A DNA stretch of 37,475 nt, from the NCBI GenBank assembly GCA_002791805.1, contig PFND01000084.1, positions 1 through 37,475 on the forward strand. The letters run 5' to 3'. The DNA comes from Alphaproteobacteria bacterium CG_4_10_14_0_8_um_filter_53_9. GTDB taxonomy: Bacteria; Pseudomonadota; Alphaproteobacteria; UBA2136; UBA6156. Shown one piece after another: positions 1 to 10,002 of this stretch (positions are counted from its first letter, which is position 1; each line of letters opens with the position of its first letter). The notes below the pieces were generated by a model. The model ran no database searches, was not told where the DNA came from, and saw only the letters and a list, made by a program, of their open reading frames with translations. The position numbers and the translations under genes are program-made.

Positions 1-47
1 CTTTTCCTCGGTCCGCCCCCTGCGCGCCGCAACCACGGAGACAATCC

Positions 48-443
48 ATGTCCGCAATCCTCACCTACACCAACTTCCGCCGCCTCATCGCAGGGATCAA
101 TCTTGCTTTCTGGTCCTTGAATACTTACGTTGGCTATTCCCTTACATTTGAGGGAACAGCCGCCACAAGCGGCCGCGAGATGTATAGCCCCGGTCTTATC
201 GCCACCTTCTTCGTATTTTTGGTATTGGCCGGGCTTAATCTCACCAGCAGATACGTTGGCAACGGATTATTCTACGGCACACTTGCGATGATTGCCTTCA
301 AGGATTACTTCATCGCCAAAGAAGCAGCCGCCGCCCTCCCGCCCGATCCAACAGCCGTCATCTTAATAGCCATAACATTCGTCTGCTGCACCGTCAGTGC
401 CCTGTGCATCTGGCACCCGGAAAAATGGCCCCCCTCCAAATAG
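48..443 (+). CDS. small multi-pass membrane protein, hypothetical
   Basis: 131-aa ORF with about four hydrophobic segments (LIAGINLAFWSLNTYVGYSL, LIATFFVFLVLAGLNL, GLFYGTLAMIAF, AVILIAITFVCCTVSALCI); followed by a terminator hairpin. Confidence 0.7.
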   Translation: MSAILTYTNFRRLIAGINLAFWSLNTYVGYSLTFEGTAATSGREMYSPGLIATFFVFLVLAGLNLTSRYVGNGLFYGTLAMIAFKDYFIAKEAAAALPPDPTAVILIAITFVCCTVSALCIWHPEKWPPSK

Positions 444-452
444 GGTCACCCC

Positions 453-487
453 AAAAGCCGCCCGATCCTCCAGATCAGGCGGCTTTT
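453..487 (+). terminator. intrinsic terminator-like hairpin
   Basis: AAAAGCCGCC (453-462) / GGCGGCTTTT (478-487) perfect arms just after the 48..443 ORF. Confidence 0.75.
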
Positions 488-616
488 GCCATCCCCACTC
501 CCTACTCACCTGTTTCTCCCCCCCCTTGCCACCCCCCAAAACGTATACTACAAACAACCTACAGATGCGGTATTTTTACGGGCAAACGAAGGTGCTCGAA
601 ACAAGGGAGAACGAGC

Positions 617-850
617 ATGAGGCTCGAAGATATCCTTACCAGACAAACGTCCCCTATCGGCAACGATAAGCGGGCAGGCTGCCATATCAGAAGCTATGCA
701 GGCCTCCACACCAATCTGCTGGCTCTCCTGTATAAGGCAACGGACGCCGGAGAAGGCCTAAGCCAGAACCACATGATCCAATGTGCCGATGGTGTAATGG
801 ATCTTCCCCAAAACATCCCCATAAAAGCAACAGAACTCGCCCTTGTGTAA
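617..850 (+). CDS. small hypothetical protein (77 aa)
   Basis: ATG at 617 preceded by AAGGGAGA; MRLEDILTRQTSPIGNDKRAG...; ends just before a hairpin terminator at 880-906. Confidence 0.45.
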   Translation: MRLEDILTRQTSPIGNDKRAGCHIRSYAGLHTNLLALLYKATDAGEGLSQNHMIQCADGVMDLPQNIPIKATELALV

Positions 851-879
851 GCAAGGCGGCTCTTGAAAACCAGTGTATT

Positions 880-906
880 GCCGCCGAGCCTGAAAAGCTC
901 GGCGGC
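880..906 (+). terminator. intrinsic terminator-like hairpin
   Basis: GCCGCCGAGC CTGAAAA GCTCGGCGGC followed by TTTC. Confidence 0.65.
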
Positions 907-920
907 TTTCGCGTATTTGT

Positions 921-2009
921 CTATTCCTCTTTTGCCCCAGAAATCTCCACCACCCGCACCGTTCCCGCAACATCTCCCGCCCACACCACATCCGTACACC
1001 ACACCTGACACCCCAATCCCACCACATCCTCTATCAAAGCCGCCCGCCGCTCGGCATCCAGATGCGCGCCAAATTCATCAATCAGCACCAGCGGCGCCAC
1101 ACCCAGCCTGTCACGTACCAACCGGGCATGAGCCATCAGCAGGCCCACAAGCCCGCGCTTGTGCTGCCCGCTGCTCGCCGTCGCCAGCGCCACCTTGCGC
1201 CCCCCTTCAATCACCACATGCCCCACCACATCCACTGTGTTGGCTCCACTCATGGTGCGGCCCATGCGGCGGTCAATATCGCGGCTCCGCGCAAACTTTC
1301 CTGCAAGCGCCGCCACACGGTCGTCATCATCCAGCACGGCAAGCCCCGCCCCTTCCAATCTCAACGCCACCCCTTCGCCAAAGCCCGTCAGCGCCTCGCA
1401 ATACGTCGCCCGCCCTTCCAAAATCTTCACCCCCCACCGCGCGGCAGAAAATTCTTCCGCCGCCAGCCAATCATCTTCCACGCCCTCTGTTTGCAAAAGC
1501 TTCATACGTCCGCGCAGGTGTCCTGTATAGCGGCGCACAGCCTCGGCATGGCCGGGCACCAAAGCCGCAGTCAAATCATCCAGCCATTCGCGCCGCACAC
1601 CGAGGCTTTCAAAAAATAGTCGGTCCAAAGCAGGCGCCAGCCACACCAGCGGAACCTCACACGCCAAAACATCGCCGCTCACCCTGTTACCATCCACCAA
1701 AACATCTTTTTTGCCCGCATCGCTCTTGGGCTTCCACCCCACCGCCACGGTGCGCCCGTCCATATCTCCCGCCACAACGCCCCACCCCATTGCCCGTTGG
1801 TTCTTGGGCACCTCCCACGCCAGCAACGCCTTGGCCTCCGCGCTCAAAATCCCGCGCCCCCCACCCAGCACACTCACCGCCTCTAAAATACTTGTTTTGC
1901 CCGCACCGTTGGGTCCAATCAGCGCCACCACATCTGCCCCGCCCAAATCCTCCAGAACCCGCTCGCGCTGGTTTCTAAAATGGGTCATAACAAGCCGTTC
2001 AATCCGCAT
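921..2009 (-). CDS. recF: DNA replication and repair protein RecF
   Basis: 362 aa, N-terminal MRIERLVMTHFRNQRE..ALIGPNGAGKTSILEAVSVLGGGRG (Walker A), C-terminal SSGQHKRGL..VLIDEFGAHLD; next to dnaN. Confidence 0.93.
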   Translation of the reverse strand: MRIERLVMTHFRNQRERVLEDLGGADVVALIGPNGAGKTSILEAVSVLGGGRGILSAEAKALLAWEVPKNQRAMGWGVVAGDMDGRTVAVGWKPKSDAGKKDVLVDGNRVSGDVLACEVPLVWLAPALDRLFFESLGVRREWLDDLTAALVPGHAEAVRRYTGHLRGRMKLLQTEGVEDDWLAAEEFSAARWGVKILEGRATYCEALTGFGEGVALRLEGAGLAVLDDDDRVAALAGKFARSRDIDRRMGRTMSGANTVDVVGHVVIEGGRKVALATASSGQHKRGLVGLLMAHARLVRDRLGVAPLVLIDEFGAHLDAERRAALIEDVVGLGCQVWCTDVVWAGDVAGTVRVVEISGAKEE

Positions 2010-2064
2010 AGAAAAGTCCTACCATAGCCTCCTGTAAAAGACAAAAAGGCTTCTCAAAATCTCT

Positions 2065-2203
2065 CTATTTTTAGGCCATTCATCTCGTTGGCGAAAACTC
2101 GTTTATTCCGAGCAGCAAGGAGGATGTGTACGTCTTCAGTACACGACGACGCGGCGCGCAGGAAAAACGAGTTTGCAGCCCGAGAGAAGGTGTCTAAAAA
2201 CAG
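2065..2203. repeat. long imperfect palindromic element (about 43-45 bp arms)
   Basis: Left arm CTATTTTTAGGCCATTCATCTCGTTGGCGAAAACTCGTTTATTCC vs reverse complement of right arm CTGTTTTTAGACACCTTCTCTCGGGCTGCAAACTCGTTTTTCC; internal GTGTAC/GTACAC. Confidence 0.65.
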
Positions 2204-2251
2204 CAACCCCCACCACCGGGCGAGGGAGAGTAAAGCCCGGAGATGGGGTTG
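2204..2251. other. second hairpin adjacent to the palindromic element
   Basis: CAACCCC (2204-2210)/GGGGTTG (2245-2251) with inner CCGGGC (2216-2221)/GCCCGG (2235-2240). Confidence 0.5.
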
Positions 2252-2399
2252 TTCAAGGTCACTGCTTCCGTTGCGTCTCGGAACTTTGGCCAGGTGGCAC
2301 AAACTTTGTTGGTATTATTCGCCACTCTTATTTTAAGTAAGCCTGCTCTCCTCGTTTTTTTCCACAACAGAAACTTTGGTAAACCCTGAAAATACGGGG

Positions 2400-3515
2400 T
2401 TAAACGCGCATCGGCATCACAACAAACAGGCTGTGAGCATCACCGGGGTCACGCACCATCACAGGGCTGTTGCTGTCCTTGCAGTGCAGCACCATGTCAT
2501 CGCCTTCAATCTGAGAGCCAATTTCCGCCAGATACCGGGCATTAAAACCAATCTCAAGAGGCTGGCCTGCATAATCAACCTTCACGTCCTCATTAGCATT
2601 TTCCTGGTCGGGGTTGTTGGCAGAAAGGGTGACAGAGCCACCATCCGCTTTCAACCGAACACTGCGTGTTTTCTCATGAGAGAGAATGCTCACCCGCTCC
2701 ACAGCCTGAAGGAGAGATTTGCGCGCCACGGTCAAAACGTCTTTCGCCACAGGCGGAATCACACGGCCGTAATCAGGGAAACTTGCATCAATCACCTTGC
2801 TGGTCATCGTAATGTCGCCCGCCTCAGCCTGGATTTTGCTCTCCGCAAGGGTCAGCTTCACTTCTTTGCCAATCTCGGCCAGCTTTTTAAGCTCGGCAAC
2901 ACATTTTTTGGGCAGGATCACACCCACCATGCCCGCCGCACCCTCGGGCAAAGGCATATCCGCCTTGGCCAGACGGTGGCCATCCGTGGCCACAGCGCGC
3001 AAAAGAGCTTCGCCGTCTTCTTCAACTTCATGAAGGTACACGCCGGTAAGATAGGCGCGCGTCTCGTCAGAGCTCGCTGCAAAAGAAACCTTGTCCAAAA
3101 GACGCTTCAAATCGGCAGAAGGCAGGGTAAACGCCACGCCGTCCGTCACCCGGGTCATATCGGGGAAGGCTTCGGCCCCAAGGGTCGCAAGGCTGAAGTT
3201 GGCCTTACCCGCACTCATGGCAAGGCGGCTGCCCCCATCCACAAGCTCAAGGTTCACCATCACCCCTTCAGGGATTTTGGAGACAATTTCAAACATTTTA
3301 GTCGCACCCACGGTGGTGGTGCCTTCCTTGTCCACAAAGGCTTCGGCGGTGCCCTGCACGGTCAGGTCGTTATCCGTACCGGTAAGCTCCAGCTGGTCTT
3401 TGGTGGCCACAAGGCGCACATTGCCCAAAATAGCAATGGTGGATCGTTTTTCAACCACAGCACTTGCGTGTTTCAGGGCTCTAAATAAGGTCTCTCGAGA
3501 TATGCTAAGTTTCAT
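2400..3515 (-). CDS. dnaN: DNA polymerase III beta sliding clamp
   Basis: 371 aa MKLSISRETLFRALKHASAVVEKRSTIAILGNVRL...PDYGRVIPP...VVMPMRV. Confidence 0.96.
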   Translation of the reverse strand: MKLSISRETLFRALKHASAVVEKRSTIAILGNVRLVATKDQLELTGTDNDLTVQGTAEAFVDKEGTTTVGATKMFEIVSKIPEGVMVNLELVDGGSRLAMSAGKANFSLATLGAEAFPDMTRVTDGVAFTLPSADLKRLLDKVSFAASSDETRAYLTGVYLHEVEEDGEALLRAVATDGHRLAKADMPLPEGAAGMVGVILPKKCVAELKKLAEIGKEVKLTLAESKIQAEAGDITMTSKVIDASFPDYGRVIPPVAKDVLTVARKSLLQAVERVSILSHEKTRSVRLKADGGSVTLSANNPDQENANEDVKVDYAGQPLEIGFNARYLAEIGSQIEGDDMVLHCKDSNSPVMVRDPGDAHSLFVVMPMRV

Positions 3516-3697
3516 GACCTAAACCTAAACCAACCATAGCCTTCCTGCCATCCCCCCTGCCCACGCCTTCACCACCAAATCAACAGCCCGATAACTAACA
3601 GCATGAATACAAAAGACTTGCCATCTCTCTAAAAACACCTTTAAGCTCTTGCCCGAGCACCACCCCTCCCTTTTCCCCAAGCAGGAGATTGTCTCTC

Positions 3698-4384
3698 ATG
3701 TTGCCAGAAAGCATCCGAACGCTTGAGATTCCCCTTTTCATCATGCCTTCCTTCTACAATGTCAGGGTGGATGAGAATAACAAAATCAACCCCAAGCCTC
3801 ACGAGGCCAGAATACGAGAAGACCTGATACGCCAAGCTGTCCACAGTGGCGTCTGGGAAGATCCGACAGATCCGAATATCTTTTACGGTTCAGGGCTCAT
3901 CATCGTTTCGGGTACAGAGATACCCACACCTCTCTTCATACGCTTTTCAATAGAAGAGGAAGGGTTAACCTTTATCCAACCGGAAGAGTTTGAGGATTGG
4001 GATGAAGACACACAACCCGTACACGGGGCAAACATGCTCTCTGCAGCAAGCTTTGCCGTAAGCCTTCTGGAAATTTACGAGACTGAAGATAAAGAAAAAT
4101 TCGCCCGCATGAAGGCACGAAGGAAGCTTAACTGGCTCACAAGCTCTCGCCAGCCGTGGTTTCCCTTTTTTCACGCGGCAGAAAGAAAGAAGATTCTCCT
4201 TCCAAGTGGAGAAAGCGCGTGGTCACTTATGGTTCGCTGCCCGGACGACTCTGTCTTCTTTATCACCCACGGCAGCGATATCGTGCTTATGGAAGAACCC
4301 GAAACTGCAAAACACGATGTTCATACGTTAAGGAACATCTCCCAAGAAGCCCTACGGGCCATGCCCCACATCGGCGAAGCCTGA
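3698..4384 (+). CDS. hypothetical protein, orphan gene between dnaN and dnaA on the opposite strand
   Basis: ORF reported from TTG at 3689; ATG at 3698 has AGGAGA about 9 nt upstream; MLPESIRTLEIPLFIMPSFYNVRVDENNK...; ends before a strong hairpin at 4418-4439. Confidence 0.75.
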   Translation: MLPESIRTLEIPLFIMPSFYNVRVDENNKINPKPHEARIREDLIRQAVHSGVWEDPTDPNIFYGSGLIIVSGTEIPTPLFIRFSIEEEGLTFIQPEEFEDWDEDTQPVHGANMLSAASFAVSLLEIYETEDKEKFARMKARRKLNWLTSSRQPWFPFFHAAERKKILLPSGESAWSLMVRCPDDSVFFITHGSDIVLMEEPETAKHDVHTLRNISQEALRAMPHIGEA

Positions 4385-4417
4385 CAACCCCTCTCACCGC
4401 CGCCCAACAACCAGAAG

Positions 4418-4439
4418 CCCCCCGCATGCGTGCGGGGGG
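4418..4439. terminator. GC-rich terminator hairpin between convergent genes
   Basis: CCCCCCGCA TGCG TGCGGGGGG followed by TCTTTG. Confidence 0.75.
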
Positions 4440-4466
4440 TCTTTGTTATTTAATCACCACGTTCTC

Positions 4467-5990
4467 CTACCGCGCCGTCAGCATCTGCTCCAAAAGCTTC
4501 ACATCTTCCACAAGGCGCGCATCGCGCTCCAAAAGGTTCACAATCTGCTGGCAGGCATGCATCACGGTGGTGTGGTCGCGGCCGCCAAAGGCACGGCCAA
4601 TGTCGGGGTAGCTGCGGCTGGTCAGCTGCTTGCACAGGTACATGGCCACCTGGCGGGGGCGGGCCACCGCACGGTCACGGCGGGGGGCATGCAGGTCCGC
4701 CACGCGGATTTTGAAATACTCGGCCACTTGCTTCTGGATATCATCCATCCCCACCACCTTTGTCTGCACACGCAGCAGGTCGCGCAGCTGGTCTTTGGCA
4801 AAGGCAATGGTAAGCTCTTGGCCCGTCAACCGAGAGAACGCTGCAAGGCGGTTAAGGGCACCCTCAAGCTCCCGAACATTACTCGCAATGTTGGTGGCAA
4901 GGTAAACAGAAACATCATGAGGCAGCTCAAGGTCCATACTCGCGGCTTTTTGCTCCAAAATAGCCTGGCGGGTTTCCACGTCAGGGGCATGCACTTCAAT
5001 GGCAAGGCCGCTGCCAAGGCGGCTCCGCAAACGGTCTTCAATGTTAGGCAAGTCATGGGGAGATTTATCGGCGGTGAGGATCACCTGTTTTCCAAGGCTC
5101 ACAAGGGTATTAAAGGTATGGAAGAACTCTTCCTGCGTGCTTTCCTTGCCCGCAATAAACTGAATGTCGTCAATCATCAGTACATCCACCGCACGGAAGA
5201 GCTCTTTAAAGGCCAGCGTGTTTTTCTCACGAATGGCGCGGATGAATGTATAAAGGAATTGTTCGGCAGAAAGATATTGGATAACCACATCAGGGTTTCT
5301 GGCCTTCAGGGCATGGCCTACCGCCTGCATCAGGTGGGTTTTTCCAAGGCCTACCCCCCCGTGGAGGAAGAAGGGGTTAAACGATCCCATCTCTTCCGCC
5401 ACACGCTGTGCTGCCGCAAAGGCAAACTGGTTAGATTTTCCGGTAACAAAACTGTCAAAAGAGTAGCGCGCGTCCAGCTCGTTGCCGGCCAGCCAGTCAT
5501 GCGTCTTGGCCGTCGCAGCAGCCCCCCCCGTCGCACCCCCGTTGCTTACCTCGCTCTTATCCTTAGGGCCCCCTTGTGTACCCCCCAAAACCTCCGTTGC
5601 ACCACCCCCGTCTCTGCCCATGCTTTGCCACACAGGCACAACATCAAAGTCCACAGCCACATCTTTGCCCGTAACATGGCGCCAGCCTTCAGCAATGGGG
5701 TCTCTGTAATGCTTTTTCACCCAATCCTGCATAAACATCGTGGGCACAGCCAGCACCACACGACCACCATCTTTCTTCAAAAAATTCAAAGGCATAACCC
5801 ATGCCGCAAAATCAGCCGGTGCTACCTGGCCTTCCATCCACGCCTGCACCGCCGCCCATATCGCCTTGTCTCCCTCCCCTTTTTTATCGCTCAAAGCACT
5901 GTTTGTTAAAGATAAATTCGGTAAAGTATTCTCAAAGTATCCATCGGACGTCATGGAAGATACAGCGGCTAAAGCAGGGGAAGATGTCAT
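4467..5990 (-). CDS. dnaA: chromosomal replication initiator protein DnaA
   Basis: GGVGLGKTHLMQAVGH (Walker A), DVLMIDDIQFIAGKESTQEEFFHTFN, C-terminal FGGRDHTTVMHACQQI. Confidence 0.98.
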   Translation of the reverse strand: MTSSPALAAVSSMTSDGYFENTLPNLSLTNSALSDKKGEGDKAIWAAVQAWMEGQVAPADFAAWVMPLNFLKKDGGRVVLAVPTMFMQDWVKKHYRDPIAEGWRHVTGKDVAVDFDVVPVWQSMGRDGGGATEVLGGTQGGPKDKSEVSNGGATGGAAATAKTHDWLAGNELDARYSFDSFVTGKSNQFAFAAAQRVAEEMGSFNPFFLHGGVGLGKTHLMQAVGHALKARNPDVVIQYLSAEQFLYTFIRAIREKNTLAFKELFRAVDVLMIDDIQFIAGKESTQEEFFHTFNTLVSLGKQVILTADKSPHDLPNIEDRLRSRLGSGLAIEVHAPDVETRQAILEQKAASMDLELPHDVSVYLATNIASNVRELEGALNRLAAFSRLTGQELTIAFAKDQLRDLLRVQTKVVGMDDIQKQVAEYFKIRVADLHAPRRDRAVARPRQVAMYLCKQLTSRSYPDIGRAFGGRDHTTVMHACQQIVNLLERDARLVEDVKLLEQMLTAR

Positions 5991-6185
5991 AGAAAATCTC
6001 GTCCTTTCAATATGTTATTATCATTCCTCCCGCACCCCGCGTGCCAGAAAATCTCGCAACGCGCACCCCACACTGCCAGCACGGCCAAAAGCCCTCGCCA
6101 CCCCCTCAGGCAGCCCCCATAATGTGTCTAAAATAAATCTCTAACTTCTTAAGACATAAGAAGAAATCGTATCTCACGAACACTC

Positions 6186-6216
6186 AAAAAAAACCGCAGT
6201 ATGGGGGACTGCGGTT
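6186..6216 (-). terminator. rpsT terminator
   Basis: AACCGCAGT (6192-6200)/ACTGCGGTT (6208-6216) with a U-run on the minus strand (A-run at 6186-6193). Confidence 0.8.
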
Positions 6217-6224
6217 AAGTATGC

Positions 6225-6494
6225 TTAAGCTTTGGCGCTCGTGCGTATTTTTGCCGCCATCCGAGAAACCTTCCGAGAGGCCGCTCCTTTCGTCAAAATA
6301 CCTTGGCGGGCTTTACGTGCCAGCTCGCTCATTGCCTCTTTAAACGTCGCGGCAAGGGTTGCCTTATCGCCAGAAACCACAGCAGCATCAAACTTCTTAA
6401 CTGCAGATTTCACTTGTGTTTTCTTGGTAATATTAGCCACTTTTTGAACGCTATCTTGGCGGATGCGTTTACGTTGTTGCTTGGTATGCGCCAT
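6225..6494 (-). CDS. rpsT: 30S ribosomal protein S20
   Basis: MAHTKQQRKRIRQDSVQKVANITKKTQVKSAVKKFDAAV...GILTKGAASRKVSRMAAKI. Confidence 0.97.
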   Translation of the reverse strand: MAHTKQQRKRIRQDSVQKVANITKKTQVKSAVKKFDAAVVSGDKATLAATFKEAMSELARKARQGILTKGAASRKVSRMAAKIRTSAKA

Positions 6495-6675
6495 GGGGTC
6501 GTCGTTTCCTTCTTCATTTAATTCAGTTATTCGGGCTGTGTCAGATGCTCACGCTTCGTTAATTTATGGCGTTTTCAAACAATCGTTCTAAAATAACAAT
6601 CATTTGGCTTCCACACAGCTTTTACTCACTTTCCCAACCACGCCCTGCCCAAAGTGTGAGCGGCACACTAACCCC

Positions 6676-6799
6676 TGTGGATAACTTTCGTAAAGCCCCC
6701 TCCACAAAAAAATACACTAAAAAAAACCTTGACTTGCCCTTTTCAAACACCCCGCCTCCGTAAAATTCGTTCCCCATTTTATCCACAGGGTTATCCCCT
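6676..6799. promoter_or_regulatory. DnaA-box cluster (candidate oriC segment A)
   Basis: TGTGGATAA 6676-6684 (perfect box, minus), TTATCCACA 6779-6787 (perfect box, plus), TTATCCCCT 6791-6799 (2 mismatches); A/T-rich flanks. Confidence 0.5.
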
Positions 6800-6842
6800 T
6801 GTATAAAAATAATGCCTAAGCCTATGTAAAATAATAAAAAGT

Positions 6843-8708
6843 CTATTTATGTAAGGCCAGCCACAAAATCTGCAAAGCCGCAGGAGTTATCCCGCTAATA
6901 CGCCCTGCCTGACCAAGGGTTGTCGGCGTATGAAGCTTAAGTTTTTCTCGTACTTCATGGCTCAGGCCCTGTAAAAGGTCGTAATTGAAGGATAGAGGGA
7001 TATCCAGCGCCTCATCATCCTTTACACGCTCAGCATCTTGCCTCTGGCGCTGTAGGTAACCGTCATAAGCCGCCTCTGTCTCAATCTGCTCCCGCGCATG
7101 TAAAGGTATGTCTTTTTCTAAGGGTAAAATCTCCAGCACCATATCCAAACTCATCTGCGGCCGCTTTAAAACCTCAAAAACACTCATCGTATAAGGAAAG
7201 TTTCCTGCAACTTCCTTCACTTTGATACCTAGCGGGCTGTTGGGCGTCACTTTCGTCATGCGGGCCCAGTTAAAGGCCGCTGTCACCTCATCTAAACGCT
7301 TGCTGAAAATATGCTGGCGTACAGAACCCACACATCCAAGATCAATCCCTTTTTGAGTTAAGCGCAAATCTGCATTATCCGCCCTCAATAAAAGCCTGTA
7401 CTCCGCACGGCTGGTGAACATGCGGTAAGGCTCCGCCGTTCCTTTTGTCGTTAAGTCATCAATTAAAACACCAATATAGGCTTCACTTCGGCTGAGTGTA
7501 AACGCTGGTTTATCACAGGCTTTAAGGGCTGCATTAAGCCCGGCCATCAAGCCTTGAGCTGCCGCCTCTTCATAACCTGTTGTTCCATTAATTTGTCCCG
7601 CCAAAAAAAGCCCTGCTATTTTTTTGGTTTCAAGTGTCGGCCGTAGCTCAGTCGGGTCAACATAATCATATTCAATAGCGTAGCCGGGGCGTAGAATTTC
7701 AGCCTTTTCCAAACCAGGTATGGTTTTCAATATTTCATGCTGAACATCAATCGGTAAACTGGTAGAGATTCCGTTAGGATAAACTTCAAAGCTATCATAT
7801 CCCTCTGGTTCCAAAAAAATCTGATGCCCTTCTTTATCAGCAAAGCGCACCACTTTGTCTTCAATACTCGGGCAGTATCTCGGTCCCGTACCTTCAATCT
7901 GGCCACTATACATAGGGCTGCGGTGAAGATTATTCCGGATAACTTCATGTGTGGCTGCACACGTGTACGTTACATGACAAGGAAGCTGAGTCTGAGGAAG
8001 TGTCTGAGTAAGATACGAGAATGCAGGAGGAGGAAAATCACCTGGCTGTTCTTCAAGACGTGAATAATCAATCGTCCTTCCATCCAAACGCGGTGGCGTA
8101 CCTGTTTTAAGGCGCCCTATTTTAAAATTAAGGGCTTTAAGGCGGTCCGCCAGTTTAAGTGATGCAGGCTCCCCCGCCCGACCTCCCGTTGTCTGGGCAG
8201 ATCCAATATGAATAAGCCCTCGCAAAAATGTTCCTGTCGTAACCACAACAGAAGGAGCCTCAAAAACCCAGCCGCTTGAGGTATAAACATGGTGCCCACC
8301 TGTTTCTTGAGGAGTAATATCCACCACTTCAGCCTGCTTAATAGAAAGATGGGGTTGAGCAAATAAAAGCTCCTGTATAGCTTCCCGGTAAAGTTTTCGG
8401 TCAGCTTGCGCTCTTGGCCCTCTTACCGCAGGCCCTTTGCTGCCATTAAGCATCCTAAACTGAATACCTGCCTTATCCGTTGCAACGCCCATAAGGCCAT
8501 CCAAGGCATCAACCTCACGCACAAGGTGTCCCTTCGCAAGCCCCCCAATCGCAGGGTTACAAGACATCTGACCAATGGCGTCTAAATTTCCCGTAAGTAA
8601 AAGCGTTTCAGCCCCCATACGTGCCGCTGCCGCTGCCGCTTCACTGCCGGCATGGCCTCCCCCAATCACAATGACATCATAGCGTGCTGTTATATTCATC
8701 TCTCTCAT
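6843..8708 (-). CDS. mnmG: tRNA uridine-5-carboxymethylaminomethyl modification enzyme MnmG (GidA)
   Basis: [62 protein letters not shown]. Confidence 0.97.
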
Positions 8709-8794
8709 GTAGGATTGTTGAGCAGCAAGGTCAAGAACCTCGTGCCAAGACTTTTAAAATATGAAACAATAAAAACCTGTTTAAGGAGATATTA

Positions 8795-9169
8795 ATGGAA
8801 ACAACGCGTTATAACCTCGAAGATAATCCCACTATTTTTGGTAAAATCCTTCGTAAAGAAATTCCGGCCAATATTGTCTATGAGGATGATAAGGCATTAG
8901 CCTTTTGGGATATAGCCCCAAAAGCACCTGTTCATATCATCATTATCCCAAAACAACACCTTGCCTGTTTACGTTGTATGGAGACATCCGATGCCAACCT
9001 TATGGCCCACCTTCTTCATGTCGCCAATATCGTTGCCGAAAAACTCGATGTTAAAGAAAGCGGATATCGCCTCATTACAAATGCCGGACAAGGCGCAGGA
9101 CAAGAGGTACCTCACCTTCACTTCCATCTTCTTGCAAGCAAAAAAGGTGAACATTTACCTGGGTTTTAA
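8795..9169 (+). CDS. HIT family (HinT-like) protein
   Basis: TIFGKILRKEIPANIVYEDDKALAFWDIAPKAPVHIIIIPK...GQEVPHLHFHLL (HxHxH motif). Confidence 0.92.
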   Translation: METTRYNLEDNPTIFGKILRKEIPANIVYEDDKALAFWDIAPKAPVHIIIIPKQHLACLRCMETSDANLMAHLLHVANIVAEKLDVKESGYRLITNAGQGAGQEVPHLHFHLLASKKGEHLPGF

Positions 9170-9170
9170 G

Positions 9171-9340
9171 CGTTATCCCCATAAGGTTGGGGATAACGTC
9201 TCCCCAGCCCCCTTTATAACTTGGGGATATCTTCTTCCCCACCCCAAATATCTCTTTTCCCCCTTTTTTCCCACCACCTCCCTACCACAAAAACACATAG
9301 TATTTTCAAACACATAATAAAGCTTCCCCACCTATCCACA
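9171..9340. promoter_or_regulatory. DnaA-box-like inverted repeat and adjacent near-consensus box (candidate oriC segment B)
   Basis: CGTTATCCCCA (9171-9181)/TGGGGATAACG (9188-9198) perfect 11-bp IR; CTATCCACA at 9332-9340; followed by an AT-rich stretch 9341-9400. Confidence 0.45.
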
Positions 9341-9459
9341 GGACAACATAAAACTATAAAAAATATTATATAAAAACTTATCTATAAGAAGAGGTATAGA
9401 CGAAAGCCTTTATCTCACAGATACTCTTTTTAATCATAATAGAGAAAAGCCATAAAAAT

Positions 9460-10002
9460 ATGAGATTAGAAACCAATCGCCTTCTTTTAATGAGTACCCA
9501 GTTTACAGATGCGAACGATATTTTTATGGGCGTAAAAGAATCGGTTAATGAGTTAAGCACATGGTTTCCATGGGCTATACAATCTTATAATTTAAGACAG
9601 GCACAAGAGTTTATTGCTGAAGCTATAAAAAAATCTCAAAATCAGGAAGCATTCGTTTACACGGTTAAAAGCCGGAGCAGCGGTAAATTTATGGGTATAG
9701 TAGAACTCAAGCATGTGCCGGATGTTTATGGTCGCAAAGTTCCTATGTTTGAAGTTGGCGCCTGGATAAGAAATAGCGAGGCCGGTCAGGGGTATGGTGC
9801 AGAAGCGTTAAAAAAACTTATCGAGCATGCAGATCAAACCTTAAAAGCTAAAAGAGTCTTTGCAGAAACAGCGGCAAGTAACAGCGCCTCTATCAAAATG
9901 ATGCAAGAAGCTGGCCTCACAAAAGAAGCCGAATTAAAACATAACCGTGTTTTGCCAGATGGCAGTCTGGAAAATACAGTTATTTGGTCATGGGTTAAAT
10001 AA
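9460..10002 (+). CDS. GNAT family N-acetyltransferase (RimJ/RimL-like)
   Basis: MRLETNRLLLMSTQFTDANDIF...FEVGAWIRNSEAGQGYGAEALKKLIEHA...ETAASNSASIKMMQEAGL. Confidence 0.88.
   Translation: MRLETNRLLLMSTQFTDANDIFMGVKESVNELSTWFPWAIQSYNLRQAQEFIAEAIKKSQNQEAFVYTVKSRSSGKFMGIVELKHVPDVYGRKVPMFEVGAWIRNSEAGQGYGAEALKKLIEHADQTLKAKRVFAETAASNSASIKMMQEAGLTKEAELKHNRVLPDGSLENTVIWSWVK

Follow-up and report, generated by a model that had tools for sequence, protein, structure and literature searches.

The question raised by the spacer between recF and dnaN in the window (the whole 37,475-nucleotide stretch analysed here) is what kind of sequence forms the imperfect palindrome of 139 bp found there. The original prediction considered a mobile palindromic repeat, similar in shape and size to the Rickettsia palindromic element (RPE), or a structured RNA. 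The features concerned are the following.

2065–2203, no strand assigned: the whole imperfect palindrome (element copy A), from RNAfold of both strands and a match of covariance model R2
2089–2184, + strand (orientation of covariance model R1; “sense” below means the opposite strand): conserved inner part of the element, R1 match with E 6.3e-24
2126–2144, no strand assigned: innermost stem-loop GTGTAC-GTCTTCA-GTACAC, columns 67–71 with 83–87 of alignment A5
2400–3515, − strand: dnaN, upstream neighbour of copy A, an ORF present in 17/17 relatives
921–2009, − strand: recF, downstream neighbour of copy A, an ORF with a RecF-like P-loop N terminus

Folding confirmed the palindrome as real. The + strand of 2060–2205 forms one end-to-end hairpin from about 2065 to 2203, with −53.8 kcal/mol where shuffled versions average −37.2 (z −4.07; matched by 0/200 shuffles), and the − strand folds with comparable strength (z −3.99). 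The pairing of the arms around a GTGTAC/GTACAC core (2126–2131 and 2139–2144) is borne out by the + strand fold. The palindrome is imperfect; its longest clean inner arms measure 19 nt and are 79% complementary. Two 82-aa ORFs cross the copy as predicted, at 2054–2302 (−) and 2088–2336 (+); a protein-coding reading was rejected, since the palindrome itself generates both.

Copy A is adjoined by a second, unrelated inverted repeat at 2204–2252 (AACCCC..CCGGGC / GCCCGG..GGGGTT), followed on the − strand by TTGCTGTTTTT; this is possibly the dnaN terminator. GC skew in the window is clearly negative over 1–10000 and near zero or positive past about 10000. Together with dnaA, rpsT, mnmG and parA/parB in the window, this change suggests a replication origin region.

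To assess the distribution of the element, the 1.27-Mb genome of the window (G000) was compared with 17 relatives of its order (18 genomes together). A BLAST search in the own genome disclosed one extra copy in the nrdA-nrdB spacer (G000:C27:16430-16521), 76% identical to the inner part of copy A over 92 bp, and two copies in one relative have the core in common with those of the own genome. In these first four copies, at most 1/500 shuffles and none of the slid versions equalled the named structure on four of five measures. Model R1, built on them, found 6 copies in G000, 23 in G002, 21 in G008 and 23 in G013. Model R2, built on 61 full-length copies, matches copy A at 2071–2202 on the − strand (E 7.9e-12), and at E 0.01 it detected 6 copies in G000, 27 in G002, 13 in G004, 17 in G007, 29 in G008, 54 in G013 and 27 in G017. 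In total, 16/17 relatives were positive with 1–54 copies each, and G011 had 0. Neither a lone copy without homologues or covariation nor conservation solely as a coding frame was found. Some contigs end about 30–100 bp from copies (L072 and L073 in G002:C9 and C13, L076 and L082 in G002:C5 and C10), indicating that assemblers break there and that draft genomes yield copy numbers that are too low.

Matches were present in 37/385 genomes of a class sample at E 0.001; these counts are minima, as only the 8 best first-look candidates were scored per genome. In a phylum sample, every match below E 1e-6 falls in the class of the window, Alphaproteobacteria, and other classes yielded weak matches only, in four genomes (best 1.2e-6). 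Plasmid copies were found in Allorhizobium, Agrobacterium, Phyllobacterium, Shinella, Sphingobium, Novosphingobium, Mesorhizobium, Rhizobium, Ensifer, Bosea and Aminobacter, all of them Alphaproteobacteria. Exact-core searches had suggested a restriction to two genera; this was wrong, and the true spread was given by the covariance models. The other matches to the core pattern in named genome contigs are attributed to chance, the surrounding element being missing. Rfam families were rejected, because the window had no match at gathering score and none of ten loci with copies matched at E 0.05, and a phage origin was rejected, because the family had no match in the phage set and viral contigs carried no exact core patterns.

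In the 61-copy consensus, the element is about 110–140 bp long and forms a single nested end-to-end hairpin. On the sense strand (opposite to R1, i.e. the − strand of the window), the 5' half reads AATTCTACTGG-nCGGGnTGC-TTTTTGnnTTTT-nCTG..CTGCGCTCCGCATGTAC-loop and the 3' half after the loop GTACACTTGCGGTGCTCG..CTGCG-AAAAnCAAAAA-TCnCC..CCAGCGAATT, with AATTCTACT ... AGCGAATT at the stem base. The second stem defines two subtypes, TTTTT/AAAAA or CAAAT/ATTTT. Helices are set apart by conserved asymmetric internal loops.

Copies are located mainly behind genes. In 42/63 copies, the modelled core is preceded at 8–57 nt, read along the sense strand, by the end of an ORF of ≥100 aa, and we read some copies as sitting directly after tRNA 3' ends. 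No G004 copy with E < 0.01 falls within an ORF of ≥120 aa; coding overlap is limited to gene ends, for example to the last codons at one G013 site. Products of neighbouring genes are unrelated (EF-Ts, an HlyD-like protein, pyruvate kinase, TolB, UvrC, PrfB, RecA, a phage capsid protein), and only two upstream genes recur in more than one genome, each within one genus. One copy (L104, G012:C3:306011-306148) is placed directly behind a Pfam Phage_capsid_3 gene, showing that the element also neighbours prophage-like genes. Banded local alignment of the outer arms revealed complementarity of flanks beyond the conserved part in 34/74 copies, against 5% by chance (mismatched flanks). The arm ends at most 4 nt from the stop codon in 13/22 copies with an adjacent gene, and Shinella, Sphingobium and Novosphingobium copies behave likewise. 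Copy A is atypical in its position, the dnaN stop codon being 215 nt from the modelled core and not abutting it.

When the spacers behind dnaN were compared among relatives, a copy was present only in G000 and G008, and in G008 it precedes an ORF which we take to be lpxC-like. A conserved dnaN-recF regulatory element was rejected on these grounds, and the two dnaN-adjoining copies look like independent insertions. In G005, a different dispersed repeat (GTCATTGCGAG..; L107), resembling CGTC-type REPs, was observed about 210 nt behind dnaN.

Presence and absence of copies at orthologous sites were observed between congeners. The rpmB spacer carries a copy in G007 and none in G004, where it is about 50 nt long, and the nrdA copy of G000 is missing from G004. 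At two further sites, G013 has the element and G017 instead has 39 and 66 nt, with about 80% identity around them; at one of these G013 sites the final codons of the gene have given way to the element. Flanks at the G013/G017 empty sites have diverged, so that the insertion junctions can be placed only approximately. A relic was also found: at G004:C2:664367-664423 (L182), on the site of a full G007 copy, the outer stem GAATTCTACTGG..CCAGCGAATTC is intact and the centre deleted. The prediction of a mobile palindromic repeat is upheld by these differences, by the six own-genome copies and by the large family in relatives. As for retention, copies of Ensifer, Rhizobium and Aminobacter (L254, L261, L264) apparently occupy one common spacer, annotated in Aminobacter as lying between two electron-transfer flavoprotein subunits (etfB-etfA). 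This points to long retention at one site, and suggests that certain copies have persisted across genera.

Searches revealed neither a transposase nor an autonomous partner, and no target-site duplication was seen. The Y1 (IS200/RAYT) transposase PF01797 is absent from 18/18 genomes of the order, in a search whose control was positive in 5/14 known genomes, and G004 has no solitary half-elements around a gene, which would mark an autonomous version. Element flanks are complementary and not directly repeated, and those of empty sites are too diverged to show a target-site duplication.

We have also addressed the orientation of copies with regard to replication, using GC skew as a proxy for its direction (local skew over 13–20 kb in G002). 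Over seven genomes, 62/67 copies are oriented by the sign of the skew. Agreement is complete in G002 (16/16), G004 (14/14), G007 (3/3), G012 (4/4) and, on 3-kb loci and the window, in the own genome (6/6); it is imperfect in G013 (14/17) and G008 (5/7), where skew is weak. In other families of the class, 11/14 multi-hit contigs are uniform in orientation. Skew is positive across nearly all of the G004 contigs C1 and C2, so that a single replichore seems to make up most of C2 (1.02 Mb). This would mean an unusually uneven layout, or else an artefact of contig joining. All copies on C2 have one orientation, and only 47% of its genes are on the + strand. Copies at gene ends in G002 and G004 are sense to the gene in 9 cases and antisense in 9, at a replication orientation of 30/30; gene direction was therefore rejected as the cause, and transcription does not explain the orientation. 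This near-strict replication orientation is an unexpected property of the palindromic DNA repeat, and points to a replication-tied DNA element, not an RNA or gene.

We propose, with a probability of roughly 0.55 for the mechanism, that the family is a non-autonomous dispersed palindromic DNA element that is mobile, or filtered, via single-stranded DNA at the replication fork. Replication would expose one strand as the lagging-strand template, where it would fold into the long hairpin with its conserved internal loops; taking the G-rich strand as leading, and skew as a proxy for the lagging template, we infer this to be the sense strand. Copies would spread through such a single-stranded intermediate, by a putative moving enzyme, or survive insertion, almost only one way round relative to the fork, and insertions would be tolerated just behind stop codons. 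Arms may stay complementary via template switching at the fork, one arm being copied from the other, and/or via selection for the hairpin, and the same process could extend them outward up to the stop codon. The lack of a detected transposase, target-site duplication or partner and the imperfect orientation in G013 and G008 count against this explanation, as does the etfB-etfA-like spacer in three genera, because it suggests long retention. A stronger statement, that this is an unrecognised class-wide family of mobile hairpins, fork-oriented, lacking a known single-strand transposase and renewing its arms, as far as the stop codon of the host gene, through template switching, is put forward only tentatively.

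The orientation can be read in two ways: either copies insert in one orientation, or those exposing the stronger hairpin are lost. The latter concerns the orientation step only and is compatible with the fork-associated element proposed above: insertion would occur both ways, and copies with the stronger hairpin on the lagging template would be cut (SbcCD-like) or deleted. It is a possible account, with odds of about one in three at best. With DNA parameters, the sense strand, the putative lagging template, folds weaker than its complement in 59/61 copies, by a mean of 6 kcal/mol, and an internally deleted relic is known. However, since folding is strong on both strands, selection would have to be strong to remove one orientation almost completely, and the asymmetry sits in the conserved internal loops, which may equally be a recognition feature.

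There is a smaller chance, about one in four, that the family has already been described, above all as RIME or Sm-repeats, Bru-RS or CIR, in which case the novelty would lie in the host and the replication orientation alone. CIRs (Caulobacter and Brucella, CcrM-associated intergenic repeats) are intergenic, multi-copy and about 110 bp long, occur in several alphaproteobacterial lineages, and are built of two hairpin arms with a linker between them and a GANTC (CcrM) site in a loop (PMC2229807). By that description, our element is alike in size, intergenic location and copy number, but forms a single nested hairpin without two arms and linker. Nor is a GANTC conserved in its loop; the motif is depleted (11/61 elements against 25 expected), occurring almost only near the ends and never mid-element. 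The rhizobial RIME, Sm-repeats and AB/C palindromes and Bru-RS1/2 of Brucella are described as Rhizobiales repeats that are intergenic and palindromic (PMC2573895, PMC2873474), with no mention of replication orientation in the text consulted. The present family occurs in Rhizobiales too, and by description these repeats and CIRs resemble it as multi-copy intergenic sequences of palindromic or stem-loop form, found in Rhizobiales and other Alphaproteobacteria (PMC2229807, PMC2573895, PMC2873474). Possible identity with RIME, Sm or AB/C repeats, known here by description, is the main limit on the claim of novelty.

For other known repeats, resemblance is only partial. A known trait of RPEs is that they insert within protein-coding genes. 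They are dispersed, putatively mobile single long stem-loops of 105–146 bp in Alphaproteobacteria (PMC2229807). The suggested RPE type, compared by description only, holds for shape and size, with one long end-to-end hairpin of 110–140 bp and up to 54 copies per genome, but not for defining features such as insertion in protein-coding frames, our copies being intergenic, at gene 3' ends and in fixed replication orientation. REP and REPIN sequences are, like our element, extragenic, non-autonomous palindromes, and form hairpins as single-stranded DNA. REPs measure 20–40 bp and bear GTAG or CGTC tags (PMC3733652), unlike units of 110–140 bp. A RAYT- or IS200-driven REP was rejected, as the 18 genomes of the order lack the Y1 transposase, by which the family also differs from IS200/IS605. 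With MITEs the family shares presence and absence at orthologous sites (rpmB in G007/G004, nrdA in G000/G004, two sites in G013/G017). Integron attC sites are defined by RYYYAAC ... GTTRRRY boxes at the stem base and act as single-stranded hairpins on the lagging-strand template with orientation effects; our consensus has no such R-box pair, and no cassette arrays were seen. Comparable hairpins and orientation effects are described for IS608/ISDra2 (PMC6006769). By its presumed working, the family would be nearest to these single-strand hairpin elements (IS200/IS605, REPIN, attC), though it lacks their defining features.

Improbable is a functional RNA at mRNA 3' ends, whose hairpin, starting from the stop codon, would terminate transcription, protect the 3' end or separate expression within operons. 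The position 8–57 nt behind stop codons, the arms often finishing at them, the double changes in stems and the etfB-etfA-like spacer kept in three genera would all suit such a role. Stems are indeed highly variable, with double changes at 25/26 consensus pairs; in the orthologous pair of copies that G004 and G007 carry behind pyruvate kinase, 8/25 pairs differ in both arms and 1 in a single arm. If the helix were RNA, G-U would be expected to be better tolerated than A-C. However, over 25 pairs in 61 copies we counted 1355 Watson-Crick, 36 G-T and 41 A-C cells, without a wobble preference on either strand; the innermost helix, the best conserved of the family, has 303/305 Watson-Crick cells, 0 G-T and 1 A-C. 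Because double changes come without a wobble preference, the structure seems, as judged from sequence comparison, to be kept in DNA and not in RNA. Gene orientation of 9:9 against a replication orientation of 30/30, canonical terminators that often come separately after copies, the unrelated neighbours and the lack of an Rfam family also speak against an RNA, and the structured-RNA option of the original prediction is thus disfavoured. The stem changes fit selection on a DNA hairpin or copying of arm from arm. Copying alone is unlikely, because it would erase the conserved internal loops. Recent perfecting was observed in the G008 copy behind dnaN: an inverted repeat of GTTTAAGCAAATCTCGCGTGTTGATTTTT, with the dnaN stop codon included, stands on its opposite side.

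Least likely is a replication-oriented functional DNA signal (cf. FtsK-orienting, Chi or primosome-assembly sites), with the hairpin used on the lagging template and kept by selection rather than mobility: near-strict orientation by skew, structure kept at the DNA level and the uniform contigs elsewhere in the class (11/14) agree with it, but genomes of one order have anything from 0 (G011) to 54 (G013) copies, sites are not common to different genera and are gained or lost between congeners, and the hairpin on the lagging-template strand is the weaker one.

Dispersed palindromes of bacteria are known, and the open questions are what maintains the pairing of their arms and how, lacking a transposase, they spread. 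The family described here offers direct handles, with hundreds of copies over the whole class, a near-strict replication-strand orientation, a strand difference in hairpin strength, and orthologous stems changed on both sides at once. As members are present in culturable genera (Agrobacterium, Shinella, Sphingobium, Ensifer), mobility, template switching and effects on replication are open to bench work.
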